Assembly: GCA_903881505.1 (NCBI GenBank)
Contig: CAIRTM010000085.1
Coordinates: 1-51,670, forward strand
Length of the DNA: 51,670 nt
Direction of reading: 5' to 3'
Origin: an uncultured delta proteobacterium
GTDB lineage: Bacteria; Desulfobacterota; WTBG01; CAIYCZ01; CAIRTM01
Below the pieces are notes generated by a model, which worked only from the letters and a program-made list of their open reading frames with translations, had not been told where the DNA came from and did no database searches. Made by a program: the position numbers and the translations under genes. Shown piece by piece: positions 11,784-51,670 of this stretch (position 1 is its first letter; each line of letters opens with the position of its first letter).

Positions 11784-12128
11784 ATGAAACTGCTGCTCGT
11801 GTTCGTCATGATTATGTTTATTTCCGTGCAGGCGATGGCAAACGACGTGTGCGACTGTGAGGGCGACACCAGGAGGGGTGGCCCCTGTTATGCTGGCGTC
11901 GGCGGGCCCGCCTACGCAGGTGTCGGCGGGCCGGCGTATGCCGGCGTCGGCGGCCCGTGCTACAAAGGCGTGGGCGGGCCGAAATACGCCGGTGTCGGCG
12001 GCCCCGAGTACAAAGGCGTGGGCGGCCCGAAATACGCCGGTGTCGGCGGGCCCTGCTATGCGGGCGTTGGCGGCCCGTGTTACGACGGGGCCGGTGCCGG
12101 CGACACGTGTCCGGACATTTGCAGGTAA
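11784..12128 (+). CDS. Secreted GGPxYxGV octapeptide-repeat protein
   Basis: A 114-residue protein with a signal peptide (residues 1-19, ending QAMA) and a short Cys-containing lead-in (DVCDCEGDTR). Nine consecutive eight-residue repeats of the form G-G-P-x-Y-x-G-V follow (residues 32-103), then a tail GDTCPDICR. The x positions hold Cys, Ala, Lys or Glu before Tyr and Ala, Lys or Asp after it. There are eight Cys in the mature part. A strong ribosome-binding site (GGAGG, 11772-11776) lies seven bases before the ATG. The repeat region is low-complexity and has no recognised fold. A structural surface or envelope protein, or a substrate for tyrosine- or cysteine-based cross-linking, are possibilities only. 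It is not a housekeeping gene I know. Confidence 0.8.
   Translation: MKLLLVFVMIMFISVQAMANDVCDCEGDTRRGGPCYAGVGGPAYAGVGGPAYAGVGGPCYKGVGGPKYAGVGGPEYKGVGGPKYAGVGGPCYAGVGGPCYDGAGAGDTCPDICR
11877..12092 (+). repeat. Nine in-frame 24-bp tandem repeats
   Basis: These encode the G-G-P-x-Y-x-G-V octapeptides. Units differ mainly at the codons before and after Tyr, while GGCGTCGGCGG-type sequence is nearly constant. The period is an exact multiple of three, so copy number can change without a frameshift. Confidence 0.85.
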
Positions 12129-46325: not shown

Positions 46326-46496
46326 ATGGTACGAATAGCACGTGAAACATGTGTCGGCTGCGGCGGCTGCGTTGACCTTTGTCCGCGCACAGCAATCCGT
46401 TTCATCAAGGATCGCGCTTTTATCGACGCCGCGCTGTGCCTGGAATGTAAAACATGCGTCAAGGTCTGTCCGGTTAAGGCTCCGCAGGAGATTTAA
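46326..46496 (+). CDS. 56-residue 2[4Fe-4S] ferredoxin
   Basis: A very short ferredoxin with two full cluster motifs: CVGCGGCVDLCP (Cys9, 12, 15, 19) and CLECKTCVKVCP (Cys38, 41, 44, 48). It would carry two low-potential [4Fe-4S] clusters in the cytoplasm. The ATG at 46326 has an ideal AAGGAGG site, and it is the first gene of the operon. The second motif has Glu and Lys within the loop, which could tune potential. It may be the soluble partner or a fixed subunit of the complex encoded downstream. Confidence 0.9.
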   Translation: MVRIARETCVGCGGCVDLCPRTAIRFIKDRAFIDAALCLECKTCVKVCPVKAPQEI

Positions 46497-46570: not shown

Positions 46571-46852
46571 TTGGAATCCAAGGCTAAAGTATCCAACAAA
46601 ACAGTACGGTGCATAGCTGTACAGGCAGGCGCTGCCAAAGCGTTTAAGCCGGGCAACCGCGTTGCTGCGCGGCCCGTTTGGGACAAGGACCGCTGCGTGC
46701 GCTGCGGGGTCTGCTATATCTATTGTCCGCACGGCGCCGTTGTACGGCAGGAGGACGGTTTTTTTGATGCTAATACCGACAGATGTTCCGGCTGCGGGGT
46801 CTGTCATCGTGAATGCTGGTTCGGTGTTATCGGCATGGTTCAGGAGGCATAA
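46571..46852 (+). CDS. PorD-like 2[4Fe-4S] ferredoxin subunit
   Basis: A 93-residue protein with about 40 N-terminal residues ahead of two cluster motifs. The motifs are CVRCGVCYIYCPHGAV (Cys42, 45, 48, 52) and CSGCGVCHRECWFGVIGM (Cys72, 75, 78, 82). The DKDRCVRCG and RCSGCGVCHREC patterns are those of the delta subunit of pyruvate- or 2-oxoacid:ferredoxin oxidoreductases; the usual Pro after the last Cys is Trp here. The likely start is a TTG at 46571 preceded by AAAGGAG. It ends two bases before the PorB-like gene, the same pairing as in por operons. Confidence 0.85.
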   Translation: MESKAKVSNKTVRCIAVQAGAAKAFKPGNRVAARPVWDKDRCVRCGVCYIYCPHGAVVRQEDGFFDANTDRCSGCGVCHRECWFGVIGMVQEA

Positions 46853-46854
46853 CG

Positions 46855-47541
46855 ATGGATAAATACAGCTTGATGGTCCCCAATTTCATTCCCGCCCAGG
46901 AATACTTCGATCCTAAACACGGCGAGACCTGCATCGGCTGCGGCGTGTCGCTGGCAGCCCGCCTGGCCGGCAAAGCGCTGGGCAAAGCACTTGCCGGCGC
47001 AGTGTGCGAGCGCCGCAAAGGCGCCGACCTGTTCGGCGTGAAGACCGATGCCGCTTTCATGCGCGTTAAAAAAGGCAGGGCCGAGCTTATTATCTGCTTT
47101 GACGATGAGCCCTCCAACGCCCTGCAGGACGCGCTGGTGAAAAAGCTTCCGGCCGTCGCCGTTGCCGAAGGCGTCGCCTATGTTGCCACCGCCTGCCCCA
47201 GCTATCCGTTCGACCTGATGGAAAAAGTCAAGCGCGCCATGGAGGCTGACGGCAGCGCCTATATCCACATCCTGGCACCCTGTCCGTCGGCCTGGAAGTA
47301 TCCGACCGAGAACACCGTCAAAGTCGGTTTCAAGGCGGTCGAGTCGCTTGCGTTTCCGCTCTATGAAGCCGCAAGCGGTTTCTACAACCTGACCAATACA
47401 ACCCTGAAGCCCCGCTCCGTCGAGGAATACATCCGTGCGCAGGGCCGCTTTGAAAAGGCAACCGCCGCGCAGGTGAAAAGCGCCGCGGCAACGGTTGAAA
47501 AAGAATATAAAAAACTGCTTGAGAAGGTTCAGCCCGAATAG
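46855..47541 (+). CDS. PorB-like protein lacking the TPP-binding segment
   Basis: A 228-residue relative of the beta subunit of pyruvate:ferredoxin oxidoreductase, which normally has about 290-310 residues. The N-terminal cluster motif GETCIGCG (Cys26, Cys29) and the second half are well preserved. The latter includes GVAYVATACPSYPFDLMEKV, ILAPCPSAWKYP with Cys143, and RSVEEYIRAQGRF. The part that should hold the GDGG...N thiamine-diphosphate/Mg motif is missing: residues 50-100 run from CERRKGADLF to IICFDDEPSN with no such motif. It is unlikely to be a working oxoacid decarboxylase and may serve as an electron-transfer or scaffold subunit. No PorA (alpha) or PorC (gamma) is present nearby. 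GGAGG precedes the ATG. Confidence 0.8.
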   Translation: MDKYSLMVPNFIPAQEYFDPKHGETCIGCGVSLAARLAGKALGKALAGAVCERRKGADLFGVKTDAAFMRVKKGRAELIICFDDEPSNALQDALVKKLPAVAVAEGVAYVATACPSYPFDLMEKVKRAMEADGSAYIHILAPCPSAWKYPTENTVKVGFKAVESLAFPLYEAASGFYNLTNTTLKPRSVEEYIRAQGRFEKATAAQVKSAAATVEKEYKKLLEKVQPE

Positions 47542-47584: not shown

Positions 47585-48505
47585 ATGTCAGATATAAAAT
47601 GGTTACCTGATGGACAGAAAACGTTTGATAAGGTCATGGCCGCGGTTCCGGAAGCGATGCGCGATGCCATCAAGCCCAAGCTGCTGCAGATGCTGGCCGG
47701 CAAGGCTGCCGGACAGCCGGTAAGCGGCGACCTGGTTAAAACATGGGTCAAAGAGGACCTGCCCGAGCCGCAGCGCAGCGCGCTGATGGCGGCCCTCGGG
47801 ATGAAGAGCGACGGCGACCAGAAGCCGGCCGCGCCTGCTGCGGCTGCCGCAGGATGGCAGGGCAATGCCGAGGTCATGTTCGAGCGCATGCTGCAGGAAG
47901 TGCCCGACATGATGCGCGAGGTGTTCCGCGGCAAGCTGATGGGCATCGCCAACGAGAAGGCCAAGGGCGGTCCGATCACCGAGGATCACATCCTGTCGAT
48001 CGTGAAGGAAATCGTGCCCGATCCCTTCAAGACCACTATTTTGAAAGCCTTCGCCACCATGGGCGGCGTTGACCTGAGCAATCTCGAAAAGCTCATCGAG
48101 AGCACGCCCGGCGGCCAGGAAACGGTTATCGGGCTGCTGCACGCGGTGCAGGCCGAATTCGGCTACTGCCCCCGCGAGGCCGTCGTCATGATCAGCCAGC
48201 GCAAGGGCGTGCCCATGGCAACCATGTACCGCCTGCTGACCTGCTACAGCGCCTTCCGCCTGGAGAAGCCCGGCAAGCATGTTGTCACCGTGTGCACCTC
48301 AACCGGCGCCTATGTCAACGGCGGCGGCGCGCTGCTCAGGCAGATCAGGGAAAAGATCGCAGCTACCGGCGCGAACATCACCCTTGAAACCGCCCGCGAT
48401 CTGGGCTGCGCCAACGCGGCCCCGGCCATCATGGTCGACGGCGAGATTTTCAGCGGCGTGAAGGCCCAGGCAAAGCTTGAGCAGATTTTCAGCGAATCCA
48501 ACTAA
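47585..48505 (+). CDS. NuoE-like subunit with two PCP_red-like modules
   Basis: A 306-residue protein. Residues 1-75 and 90-155 are two helical modules of the type W-x(5-7)-F-x-x-V/M-x-x-V-P-x-x-M-R (IKWLPDGQKTFDKVMAAVPE and WQGNAEVMFERMLQEVPD). They resemble the PCP_red domain known from light-independent protochlorophyllide reductase. Residues 165-306 match the 24-kDa NuoE/HoxE/HndA subunit (AVQAEFGYCPREAV, then the thioredoxin-like domain). The usual four [2Fe-2S] ligands (CxxxxC and CxxxC) are reduced to Cys237 in VCTSTGAY and a displaced Cys275 in DLGCANAAP, so a normal cluster is doubtful. The intergenic leader ATCCCTGAAAGGAGA recurs before the NuoF-like gene. Confidence 0.85.
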   Translation: MSDIKWLPDGQKTFDKVMAAVPEAMRDAIKPKLLQMLAGKAAGQPVSGDLVKTWVKEDLPEPQRSALMAALGMKSDGDQKPAAPAAAAAGWQGNAEVMFERMLQEVPDMMREVFRGKLMGIANEKAKGGPITEDHILSIVKEIVPDPFKTTILKAFATMGGVDLSNLEKLIESTPGGQETVIGLLHAVQAEFGYCPREAVVMISQRKGVPMATMYRLLTCYSAFRLEKPGKHVVTVCTSTGAYVNGGGALLRQIREKIAATGANITLETARDLGCANAAPAIMVDGEIFSGVKAQAKLEQIFSESN

Positions 48506-48528: not shown

Positions 48529-50517
48529 ATGGCAGATATAACGTGGTTACCCGATGGACAGGAAACATTTGATAAAGTAATTGCCGCCGTGCCTGAAGGG
48601 ATGCGGGCTGCGATGAAGCCCAAGCTCACCGAGATGCTGGCTGCCAAGGCCGGCGGGAAAAAAGTCAGCCGCAAAATCGTCGAGGCCTGGGTGAAGGAAG
48701 ACCTGCCCGAGCCGCAGAGAAGCGTTTTGATGAGCGTGCTGGGTTTGGACAAGCCCGCGGCGCCTGAAGCGTCCTCCCTGAAAAAGGCTGCCTGGAAGGT
48801 GAAGGGCACGGTGAAGAATGCCGCTGATCTTGCGAAGATGAAGGCCGCGGGCCAGGAGCTGCTGGCTCCCAAGACGCTCAGAATCACGGTGGCGAGCGCT
48901 TCCTGCGGACTGGCCAAAGGCGCCGGCGCCGTTGCCGCAGCCCTGCAGGACGCAGTCAGGAAGCAGAAAGTAAACGCCGACGTGGTGATGGTCGGCTCCA
49001 ACGGCATGAGCTGGGCCGAGCCCGTGGTGAGCGTGATCAAGGCCGGCAGGCCCTGCGTGGTCTACGGCAGTGTCACGGCTGACGCGGCCGCCGACATTGT
49101 CAAGGCAGCCGCCTCCGGCAAGGTGGTGGAAGAACTGGCCCTGATGCGCGTTGACGGCGTAAAGGTTGACGTCACCGGCGAAAAAATCAAGTATGCATCC
49201 GACAAGGTACCGGCCGCTCTTGCTAAAATCAAAGACGGCGCAAAAATCGACTTTTTCAAAAAGCAGCTCAAAATCGTATCGCGCAACGCGGGCATCATCG
49301 CCCCGGACCGCATCGAAGAATATATCGCCCTTGGCGGCTACCAGGCGCTCGCAAAGGCGCTTGGCAGCATGAAGCCCGCTGATGTCATCCGCGAGGTCAA
49401 GGAATCCAAACTGCGCGGACGCGGCGGCGCTGGATTTCCCGCAGGCATCAAGTGGGAGGCCTGCAGCAAGGCGGCCGGCGACAAAAAATACATTGTCTGC
49501 AACGGCTCTGAAGGCGATCCCGAAATCGGCCTGCACAAGAGTTTCCTGGAGTCCGATCCTCACATGCTGATCGAAGGCATGCTGCTGGCCGGGTATGCCG
49601 TGGGCGCCTCTGAAGGCTATGTGTATCTGAACGACCGGTATCTGCTCGCCATCGAGCGCGTGCAGACCGCAATCGAGCAGGCCGAAAAGGTCGGGCTGCT
49701 CGGCAAACATATCCTCGGCAGCGGTTTTTCCTTCAGCCTGAAGGTAAAGCGCGGCGGCGGGGCCTACGTGTGCGGCGAGGAAACCGCGCTCCTGAACGCG
49801 CTGGAAGGCTCGTTCGCCGAGCCGCGTCCGCGCCCCCCGCTGCCGGTGCATCAGGGCTTGAACGGCAAGCCCACCGTGGTCAACAACCTTGAAACCCTTT
49901 CCACTGTTTCGGCCATCGTGCTCAAGGGCGGCGCATGGTATGCCGGCATCGGCACGCCGGCCAGCAAAGGCACCAAGATCGTGGCCCTGTCCGGCAACGT
50001 TGCCCGGCCCTGCTGGGTTGAAGTCGCCATGGGCACGGTCATCGGCGATATCATCGATGTGTTCGGCGGCGGCACTGCCAGCGGCAGGAAGGTCAAGGCC
50101 TTCCAGACCGGCGGCCCCTCGGGCGGTCTTCTGCCCGCTTCGCAGCTGAAACTCAAGCTCGACTATGACGCGCTCGGCAAGGCCGGCAGCCTGCTGGGCT
50201 CCGGCGGCCTGCTGGTGATGGACGAGGATTGCGATGTCGTTGATGTTGCCCGCTTCCTGACGGAGTTTTTCCTTGAGGAGTCCTGCGGCAAGTGCACCCC
50301 GTGCCGTGAAGGCGTCAAGCGCCTGAGCGAAATCGTGAGCTGCATTGCCGACGGCCGCGGCACCAAAGCGCAGCTGGCCCTGGTGAAAAGCATGGGCGAG
50401 GCCATGAGCGCGGCCTGCTTCTGCGCGCTGGGCAAAACCGCTGCCGCCCCGATACTGACGGTGATGAAGCACTTCCCCAAGGACGTCAGCGCAAAGATGC
50501 TGAAGACTATTAACTAA
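48529..50517 (+). CDS. NuoF-like NADH-binding subunit with PCP_red-like module
   Basis: A 662-residue protein. Residues 1-75 are a third PCP_red-like module, closely similar to the first one in the NuoE-like protein. Residues 115-200 are the thioredoxin-like domain of HndC/HydB-type subunits, but of its four [2Fe-2S] Cys only Cys126 remains (VASASCGLAKG, GSNGMSWAEP). The flavin/NADH core follows: RGRGGAGFPAG (296-306), the altered CNGSEGDPEIGLHK, where homologues have NADEGDPGAFMDR, and RGGGAYVCGEETALLNALEG. The [4Fe-4S] site ESCGKCTPC (Cys586, 589, 592, with Cys630 or 632) is intact. The C-terminal ferredoxin domain of HydB is absent. It should oxidise or reduce NAD(H) via FMN, subject to the altered flavin site. 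Gap to its neighbours is under 40 bases. Confidence 0.9.
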   Translation: MADITWLPDGQETFDKVIAAVPEGMRAAMKPKLTEMLAAKAGGKKVSRKIVEAWVKEDLPEPQRSVLMSVLGLDKPAAPEASSLKKAAWKVKGTVKNAADLAKMKAAGQELLAPKTLRITVASASCGLAKGAGAVAAALQDAVRKQKVNADVVMVGSNGMSWAEPVVSVIKAGRPCVVYGSVTADAAADIVKAAASGKVVEELALMRVDGVKVDVTGEKIKYASDKVPAALAKIKDGAKIDFFKKQLKIVSRNAGIIAPDRIEEYIALGGYQALAKALGSMKPADVIREVKESKLRGRGGAGFPAGIKWEACSKAAGDKKYIVCNGSEGDPEIGLHKSFLESDPHMLIEGMLLAGYAVGASEGYVYLNDRYLLAIERVQTAIEQAEKVGLLGKHILGSGFSFSLKVKRGGGAYVCGEETALLNALEGSFAEPRPRPPLPVHQGLNGKPTVVNNLETLSTVSAIVLKGGAWYAGIGTPASKGTKIVALSGNVARPCWVEVAMGTVIGDIIDVFGGGTASGRKVKAFQTGGPSGGLLPASQLKLKLDYDALGKAGSLLGSGGLLVMDEDCDVVDVARFLTEFFLEESCGKCTPCREGVKRLSEIVSCIADGRGTKAQLALVKSMGEAMSAACFCALGKTAAAPILTVMKHFPKDVSAKMLKTIN

Positions 50518-50551: not shown

Positions 50552-51487
50552 ATGAAATTAAAAATCAACGGCAAGAACATCAAGGCAAAGGAAGGCATGA
50601 GCGTGCTCGAAGCCGCGCGCGCCAATGGAATCGACATTCCGACCCTGTGCTCCAATGATGCGCTCAAGCCCTACGGGGCCTGCCGCATGTGCATCGTGGA
50701 AATAGAGCAGGGCGGCCGCACCACGGTCGAGGCCGCCTGCACCTTTCCGGCAGCAGAGGGCATGTCAGTGAAAACCGACAGTCCCCGGGTCGTCGCCGGC
50801 CGCAAGCTCGTCATCGAGCTGCTCCTGGCCCGCTGCCCCAATGTGAAGGCGGTGCAGGACCTCGCGCGCGAATACGGCGTTGCCGACAGCAGCGCCGACT
50901 GGGGCAAGGACAATGAATACTGCGTGCTGTGCGGCCTGTGCGTGCGCGCCTGCAACGAGGTGGTCGGCGCCTGCGCGATCCAGTTCGCCGGCCGCGGGGC
51001 CGACAAGAAGGTCGACAGCCCCTTCCATCAGTCGGCCGAGGACTGCGTTGCCTGCGGGTCCTGCGCCTATGTGTGCCCGACCGGCATTATCAAGAAAAAC
51101 GACCTTGCCGCATCAGCTACATGTTCGCCCGAGGGCGCGAAGCAGGAAGGCCCCAAGCGCGAAATCCTGAACTGGCAGGTCGAATACTCGCTGAAAGTCT
51201 GCACCAAGTGCGGCAACCCGTTTGCCCCGGTGCAGCACCTTGACAAGCTTTCCAAGCAGTTCAATGCGCTGCCCCAGTTCTTTAACCTCTGCCCGTCCTG
51301 CCGCGAGTATATAACGGTTGACCGCGACAAGTGCCTGGGCTGCGGCTCCTGCATGGAAAACTGCCCCGTAGGGGCTCTTGAACTCGACGACAAGGGCGGC
51401 TATGACAAGCGCGCACAGGTCTTTGAACAGAACTGCATGGCCTGCCACACCTGCCAAATTTACTGCCCGGTTGGGGCAATCAGCTGA
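50552..51487 (+). CDS. NuoG/HoxU-like multi-cluster Fe-S subunit
   Basis: A 311-residue protein resembling the N-terminal part of NuoG or HoxU. It has a [2Fe-2S] domain (Cys33, 44, 47, 63; YGACRMCIVEIE). Two [4Fe-4S] sites follow (Cys124, 127, 130, 134 and Cys165, 168, 171, 175), then a four-Cys knuckle (CTKC at 217-220 and CPSC at 247-250) of zinc or rubredoxin type. A C-terminal ferredoxin-like pair completes it (Cys261, 264, 267, 271 and Cys295, 298, 301, 305). The His-Cys3 cluster motif of NuoG is not recognisable. There is no H-cluster domain, so it is not a hydrogenase, and no molybdopterin domain. With five predicted clusters it could wire the NuoF-like flavin to another partner. AGGAAAGGA precedes the ATG. 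Confidence 0.9.
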   Translation: MKLKINGKNIKAKEGMSVLEAARANGIDIPTLCSNDALKPYGACRMCIVEIEQGGRTTVEAACTFPAAEGMSVKTDSPRVVAGRKLVIELLLARCPNVKAVQDLAREYGVADSSADWGKDNEYCVLCGLCVRACNEVVGACAIQFAGRGADKKVDSPFHQSAEDCVACGSCAYVCPTGIIKKNDLAASATCSPEGAKQEGPKREILNWQVEYSLKVCTKCGNPFAPVQHLDKLSKQFNALPQFFNLCPSCREYITVDRDKCLGCGSCMENCPVGALELDDKGGYDKRAQVFEQNCMACHTCQIYCPVGAIS

Positions 51488-51503
51488 GAGAAGGAGAACG
51501 TAC

Positions 51504-51670
51504 ATGGCCACGAAATATGTTTATGATCTTGCAATCGTCGGCGCAGGGCCCGGCGGCCTCTACTCGGCCATCTGCGCCGCTAAAAAGGGCATGAAGGTCG
51601 TGCTCATTGAAAAACGCAAGGATATCTCCAAGATGACCCGCTACTGCAGCGAGCACATCATCCTTGAAGA
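51504..51670 (+). CDS. FAD-dependent oxidoreductase, N-terminus only
   Basis: The first 55 residues of a flavoprotein cut by the right edge. YDLAIVGAGPGGLYSAICAAKKGMKVVLIEKR is a textbook dinucleotide-binding fold (the motif is GAGPGGLYSA with Glu at the end of the second strand), followed by RYCSEHIILE. The layout suggests the geranylgeranyl reductase-like or general FAD/NAD(P) oxidoreductase group, but too little is present to decide. AAGGAGA lies upstream and the gene is 16 bases after the NuoG-like stop, so it is part of the same operon. Confidence 0.85.
   Translation, partial: MATKYVYDLAIVGAGPGGLYSAICAAKKGMKVVLIEKRKDISKMTRYCSEHIILE

Follow-up and report, generated by a model that had tools for sequence, protein, structure and literature searches.

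A PorB-like subunit without its thiamine-diphosphate segments in an NADH-linked, FAD-associated operon of an uncultured delta proteobacterium

Por-Bfu is a proposed bifurcating pyruvate oxidoreductase belonging to the Bfu enzymes, for which many third substrates have been proposed; the same work names the sites diagnostic of bifurcation and holds them conserved in all Bfu members (Schut et al. 2022, PMC9304861). The long PorBs of other deltaproteobacterial lineages, Chloroflexi and Spirochaetes mostly lie in PorG-PorD-PorA-PorB-NuoE-NuoF-NuoG clusters (PorD, PorB and NuoE/F/G mapped across loci, PorA and PorG checked in L038), a layout that matches the proposed Por-Bfu (PMC9304861).

We analysed a 51,670-nucleotide contig of an uncultured delta proteobacterium (the window), in which PorD- and PorB-like genes stand beside NuoE/F/G (BfuC/B/A)-like genes in the same order as in Por-Bfu. 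This operon, referred to as type 1, reads Fd56-PorD-PorBs-NuoE-NuoF-NuoG-FAD, and it differs from Por-Bfu in lacking PorA and PorG and in containing a FAD protein. Its features are as follows.

46326..46496, + strand: Fd56, a 56-aa 2x[4Fe-4S] ferredoxin, first gene of the type-1 operon (Pfam Fer4/Fer4_10)
46571..46852, + strand: PorD-like 2x[4Fe-4S] delta subunit, 93 aa, TTG start (NCBIfam PorD_KorD)
46855..47541, + strand: PorBs, 228-aa PorB-like subunit without TPP site (profile, alignment and fold evidence)
46930..46941, + strand: CIGC motif with C26 and C29 (aligns with CxGC of OOR beta and long PorBs)
47275..47286, + strand: APCP motif with C143, counterpart of PorB's last cluster cysteine (alignment)
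47585..48505, + strand: NuoE/BfuC-like, with N-terminal extension (Pfam 2Fe-2S_thioredx, ligand alignment)
48529..50517, + strand: NuoF/BfuB-like (Pfam Complex1_51K, NADH_4Fe-4S)
50552..51487, + strand: NuoG/BfuA-like, [2Fe-2S] and several [4Fe-4S] (Pfam Fer2_4, Fer4 x4)
51504..51670, + strand: first ~55 codons of a FAD geranylgeranyl-reductase-like gene, the rest cut off by the contig end (translation)

All operon genes are under purifying selection (dN/dS 0.05-0.10 against the sister genome), and the window PorD scores 66.5 bits with NCBIfam PorD_KorD, above the cut-off of 60.05. The FAD gene is complete in the sister-genome orthologue (L033:9093-10430) and in C140, a contig of the same genome whose reverse complement overlaps 51293-51670. 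Since the overlap agrees at 363/377 positions, it suggests that the window's contig ends at an assembly break caused by strain variation, not at the true end of the gene. Rfam gave no matches in the window, and 11784-12128 encodes a small secreted-looking protein with GVGGPxYxGVGGP repeats and DVCDCEG near its start.

The operon also resembles the NADH-dependent phenylglyoxylate dehydrogenase in being an NADH-linked Por-type system, with weak profile matches between PorBs and PadI (beta, 78 bits) and between PorD and PadF (delta, 63 bits). These scores fall far below the curated cut-offs of 700 and 150, and PadI keeps TPP and has alpha and gamma partners. A literature search returned nothing specific on a TPP-less PorB or on a geranylgeranyl (GG)-reductase/NuoEFG complex.

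The PorBs frame starts with ATG, has AGGAGG ahead of it and encodes 228 aa. We located the strings CIGC (C26, C29), ATACPSYP (C114), ILAPCPSAW (C143) and EYIRAQGRF; C51 and C81 complete the set of cysteines. In phmmer searches of the PDB, PorBs matched oxalate oxidoreductase beta (5c4i_C, E 9e-26) and Methanosarcina PFOR beta (9bt4_C, 1e-21). Residues 96-208 align to PorB 163-290 while the N-terminal CIGC aligns to CxGC, so it is the middle of the protein that is missing. An AlphaFold model built on an alignment of 54 PorBs (pLDDT 88.4, pTM 0.86) was compared by VIA-align with 9bt4_C (Z 20.1, 197 residues, 2.7 A) and 5exd_F/5exe_C (Z 20.0), in comparison to a Z of only about 5 for unrelated TPP enzymes; Foldseek gave E 5e-10. 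The superposition that the initial annotation had proposed as a check thus places PorBs on the PFOR/oxalate oxidoreductase beta fold at a Z of about 20. PorBs shares with these subunits (9bt4_C, 5c4i_C, 6cin) the fold, CxGC, APCP and the C-terminal block, but is ~80 residues shorter and has no GDG, DNEAYMNTG, TGC or PorA partner.

PorBs has the PorB fold and C-terminal block, and over its C-terminal 130 aa it shares 45-50% identity with the nearest long PorBs. Among NCBIfam PorB models the best reached 132.7 bits, below the cut-off of 405, and no Pfam family matched, TPP_enzyme_C (PF02775) included; the TPP-bearing PorB of a class relative, used as a control, passed NCBIfam PorB (417 bits) and matched PF02775 (E=2e-21). 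These scores, together with the motifs, rule out annotation as a plain PorB from Pfam or NCBIfam. PorBs is a real conserved PorB paralogue and neither a fragment nor a pseudogene, because 25 orthologues and paralogues of 220-254 aa are conserved and dN/dS against a 93%-identical orthologue is 0.10, which indicates purifying selection.

The initial annotation had described PorBs as 60-80 residues shorter than PorB. The truncation is real and amounts to 77-90 residues compared to close full-length relatives of 305-318 aa, and alignment with long PorBs resolved it into three separate gaps rather than one: ~16-18 aa with TGCMEIVSS, ~29 aa with GDGGTSDIG..LSGALERG, and ~25 aa after DNEA (YMNTGIQRSS..TTTSPAG). 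By sequence, alignment and Pfam, the GDG and NEAYMNTG parts of the Mg-TPP segment are both absent from PorBs, which confirms the loss claimed earlier; the counterpart of DNEA reads FDDEP in the window's PorBs and FDNEA in relatives. The accompanying claim that Fe-S cysteines were retained holds for C26, C29 and C143, but not for the full set. Going by PFOR/OOR structures, we take the deleted TGC segment to carry the third canonical ligand of the proximal 4Fe-4S cluster; therefore PorBs, which keeps CxGC and APCP, has three of four canonical ligands, and the four-Cys set is incomplete. All motifs quoted earlier are present, but ACPSYP is no cluster site, its C114 being replaced by Ser in several relatives.

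Among the short forms, C26 and C143 are invariant (25/25), C29 and C81 are each found in 24/25, and an extra Cys two residues before C143 (CPCP) occurs in 21/25. The extra Cys is absent from the window's genus, where C51 is present instead; C141 is not universal among short forms. In G000_2, the second PorBs of the same genome, C29 is changed to Ser, and in long TPP-less forms C25, C28, C134 and C221 are invariant. From this pattern a 4Fe-4S cluster in PorBs is plausible, and its function is not assured because one ligand is missing, C29 is Ser in G000_2 and C141 varies.

We found TPP-less PorBs in 14 of the 17 genomes of the window's class and, in a limited set of searches, in no other group. 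The short forms (n = 25, 220-254 aa) come mostly from two or three paralogous operons per genome and keep their length class throughout these 14 genomes; the deletion is therefore conserved among homologues, the second check that had been proposed. No short forms were found outside the class at E<=1e-60 in 395 phylum genomes, and 22 genomes that had contributed loci from other groups, among them Chloroflexi, Spirochaetes, WOR-3 and Latescibacterota, gave no full-length short form; these 22 are a locus-based set rather than a systematic sampling of other phyla. The same seven genes make up the type-1 operon in all eight other genomes (8/8) where a type-1 contig extends far enough, with Fd56 at the same position wherever there is enough flanking sequence. 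Type-2 operons consist of PorD-PorBs-NuoE-NuoF only, without NuoG and without a FAD gene nearby, so a FAD partner is not universal; type-3 operons comprise PorD-PorBs-NuoE-NuoF-NuoG with Fd and other FAD genes. With the PorB of a FAD array as query, two further TPP-less groups emerged, b (304-313 aa) and c (274-313 aa). Here other sequence stands in place of the middle segment, and GDG, NEAYMNTG and the TGC segment are all absent. Their neighbours, too, include PorD, NuoEFG, Fd and FAD genes, and PorD adjoins nearly every TPP-less PorB.

Loss of the motifs goes along with a swap of operon partners. Within the class, TPP-bearing PorB loci have PorA and PorG at 10/10 and a nearby FAD gene at 0/10, compared to 0/37 for PorA or PorG and 19/37 for a FAD gene within reach at TPP-less loci, many of the other TPP-less contigs ending early. 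On an ML tree of 61 rows the TPP-less PorBs all group on one side, with a single TPP+/TPP- change and support of 100/97 for the short clade. Given this single change, we regard the data as the consistent outcome of a single event rather than as many separate ones; the PorA (10/10 vs 0/37) and FAD (0/10 vs 19/37) associations represent one evolutionary change, and Fisher P values make the loci look more independent than they are. Full-length PorBs with GDG and without NEAYMNTG, which may have an altered TPP site, were seen separately at L163 and L164 (G002, G008); in G008 (L188) such a PorB still adjoins PorA/PorG.

That PorBs has lost thiamine-diphosphate catalysis is a well-supported prediction, because the motifs are gone, the Pfam profile fails and PorA and PorG are absent at 37/37 TPP-less loci, and because no nearby gene supplies the segment and the other PorA-type genes have TPP subunits of their own. 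The initial annotation had raised two findings that would speak against it. A separate gene for the missing TPP segment is not present in the operon. A homologue of similar length with a TPP motif does exist in the same genome, a 246-aa KorB-like GDGD protein (L125:5557-6297), but it was rejected as a counterexample because it falls in a different subfamily, comes with PorA-type and PorG-type partners of its own and has no C-terminal block.

For NuoF and NuoG of the window, the relationship to the proteins encoded in the long-PorB clusters is clear. As in Bfu members, the window's BfuB (NuoF) has the FMN/NADH domain and the B1 4Fe-4S site (SCGKCTPCR); it differs from Por-Bfu in lacking the B2 His/Cys and the C-terminal B3/B4 dicluster, and its N-terminal [2Fe-2S] (B5) Cys are lost (GSNGMS). 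BfuC (NuoE) has likewise lost most of its [2Fe-2S] (C1) ligands, with one clear position left (VCTSTGAY..DLGCANAAP); these ligands are intact in most type-1 NuoE relatives outside the window's close clade. NuoG has an additional C-terminal dicluster and no H-cluster domain, and scores 149 bits with NCBIfam FeFe_hydrog_A6, below the cut-off of 765. B2 (HxxxxxCxxxxC) is kept in the NuoFs of long-PorB clusters and of the type b/c systems examined, most of them also with the C-terminal dicluster, and in one type-3 system; both are missing from all type-1 and type-2 NuoFs examined, which end before these sites. Because B2/B3/B4 and most C1/B5 ligands are absent, the window complex, by the published criteria, probably does not bifurcate and would be a flavoenzyme system that depends on NADH (or reduces NAD). 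Types b and c, the TPP-less relatives of greater length, mostly keep the sites and may still bifurcate.

Across 47585-48505 and 48529-48850, most [2Fe-2S] Cys of NuoE and of the NuoF N-terminal domain, which are present in other type-1 relatives, are lost in the window's genus and in G005, with G003 intermediate. The N-terminal extensions of NuoE (47585-47800) and of the window-clade NuoF (48529-48740) are alike (WLPDGQ..FDKV.AAVPE.MR...KPKL, in one or two copies) and may relate to a PCP_red-type domain, though the Pfam search gave no such match.

The type-1 FAD protein matched TIGR02032 (E 8e-19) at 68.4 bits, below the cut-off of 158.8, and its best Foldseek match was 3oz2 (E 1.4e-19), indicating a GG-reductase fold with a FAD-binding domain. 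It thus shares its fold with the geranylgeranyl reductase/FixC superfamily (TIGR02032; 3oz2, 7koe_C), but falls below the family cut-off and is linked to PorBs/NuoEFG instead of ETF. By sequence and fold it is a distant member of the GG-reductase superfamily, and isoprenoid double-bond reduction is only a putative activity of this protein. A characterised archaeal GG-reductase receives electrons from a neighbouring ferredoxin (PMC10821996), which makes a FAD partner fed by Fe-S proteins plausible. The family has expanded in parallel with the TPP-less PorBs: at E<=1e-20, all 14 TPP-less-PorB genomes of the class hold 8-23 copies and the three f3 genomes without TPP-less PorB hold none, and at E<=1e-50 the family occurs in 6/198 phylum genomes, all in the window's class.

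Other FAD copies neighbour DUF1302/DUF1329/YCF48/MMPL-type genes, FAD-linked oxidases with CCG Fe-S proteins, thiolase, amidohydrolase-like and UbiD-like genes and TetR/MarR regulators, several of them identified only by eye. Tandem arrays of up to six FAD genes were seen at L141 (G005:C25:82000-100000), L142 (G002:C15:3000-19220) and L180 (G004:C130), with MarR regulators, DUF1302/DUF1329/YCF48-like genes, GlcD-type FAD-linked oxidases and CCG Fe-S proteins; in L142, six tandem FAD genes lie beside DUF1302-like, DUF1329-like and YCF48-like genes. These arrays possibly serve the anaerobic catabolism of hydrophobic compounds. DUF1302/DUF1329 proteins are part of a Castellaniella monoterpene-metabolism locus (PMC6394551), and this analogy suggests, as a lead only, that the substrates of the FAD family are hydrophobic. 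The limonene dehydrogenase CtmAB and the delta-24 sterol desaturase are a literature precedent for oxygen-independent flavoenzymes with hydrophobic substrates; they are not claimed as relatives of the FAD family.

We favour, at a probability of roughly 60%, the reading that PorBs, having lost TPP catalysis, survives as part of an NADH-linked complex derived from Por-Bfu, in which a FAD enzyme replaces the oxoacid module. The ancestor would have been a Por-Bfu-like PorG-PorD-PorA-PorB-NuoE-NuoF-NuoG system passing electrons from TPP over the PorB and PorD clusters to NuoG and FMN/NAD. In this lineage PorA and PorG would have vanished and PorB dropped its TPP segments, and a FAD protein of the geranylgeranyl-reductase superfamily would have taken over the substrate-side position. 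The operon proteins would form one complex in which electrons could run from NADH through NuoF FMN, B1, NuoG and PorD (with PorBs) to FAD and the substrate, or the other way should the FAD enzyme work as a dehydrogenase. As a relay or adaptor, PorBs would link the FAD enzyme with the ferredoxin-like subunits, a docking piece that formerly served TPP.

The strongest competitor, which we consider considerably less probable, sees in PorBs nothing more than a structural or vestigial scaffold that fixes PorD to the NADH module, carries no cluster and passes no electrons. The deleted third ligand, the Ser in G000_2 and the variable C141 favour it, as do the Cys losses in NuoE and the NuoF N-domain, which make cluster loss a trend in the window's clade; against it stand the invariance of C26 and C143, the near-invariance of C29, the four invariant cysteines of the long TPP-less forms and the dN/dS of 0.10. 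An electron-transfer role for PorBs is plausible. It is improbable that the complex still bifurcates or confurcates as a FAD-linked enzyme of Bfu type in which NADH, ferredoxin and a FAD substrate are coupled: its relatives are of Por-Bfu type, B2 is kept by types b/c and by one type-3 system and the C-terminal dicluster by most of them, and many third substrates have been proposed for Bfu members, but the window lacks B2, B3/B4, the B5 Cys and the C1 ligands, sites held conserved in all Bfu members (PMC9304861).

PorA-type proteins encoded elsewhere in the genome could in principle lend PorBs a PorA/TPP in trans for 2-oxoacid oxidation. We think this very improbable, as the 1186-aa fused PFOR on C60, PorA-PorB-PorG on C126, the Kor set on C64 and the 684-aa ORF on C47 have their own TPP subunits, and to our knowledge the TPP pyrophosphate/Mg site is supplied by PorB and PorA cannot replace it. 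An assembly error or frameshifted full-length PorB might be suspected in a fragmented MAG whose contig ends inside the operon, but this is refuted by the orthologues, which show the same length class in 14 independent genomes, nearly always as uninterrupted frames, and we give it practically no weight.

More tentatively, and with rather less confidence than in the reading we favour, the class could have turned Por-Bfu into a general NAD(H)-to-FAD hub, in which TPP-less PorB adapts NuoEFG to interchangeable FAD enzymes. These enzymes, of which one genome has as many as 23 and some are encoded in tandem beside DUF1302/DUF1329/YCF48/RND-type genes, would then act on hydrophobic substrates without oxygen; some versions would have kept bifurcation, and others, the window's included, would have lost that capacity.

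The initial annotation had concluded that PorBs changed from catalysis to electron transfer. Its first half is well supported and its second is plausible, with a structural or adaptor role also possible; as a whole it is partly supported and too narrow, having missed the NADH module, the FAD enzyme and the class-wide family. The operon context suggests a class-wide rebuilding of the Por-Bfu complex around FAD enzymes, which carries more weight than the motif loss in PorBs alone. If true, this would be a clear case of a catalytic subunit of central metabolism surviving the loss of its cofactor as an electron-transfer or docking part. The intermediates would still exist, from TPP-bearing Por-Bfu through long TPP-less forms that have the full Bfu motifs and short forms that lack B2-B4 to the window's form, in which C1/B5 are gone as well. 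Automated annotation as a pyruvate synthase beta subunit would then predict the wrong metabolism. A FAD-enzyme type would join the proposed list of third substrates of Bfu-like complexes, and the finding would offer a handle on a large, unassigned family of anaerobic flavoenzymes.
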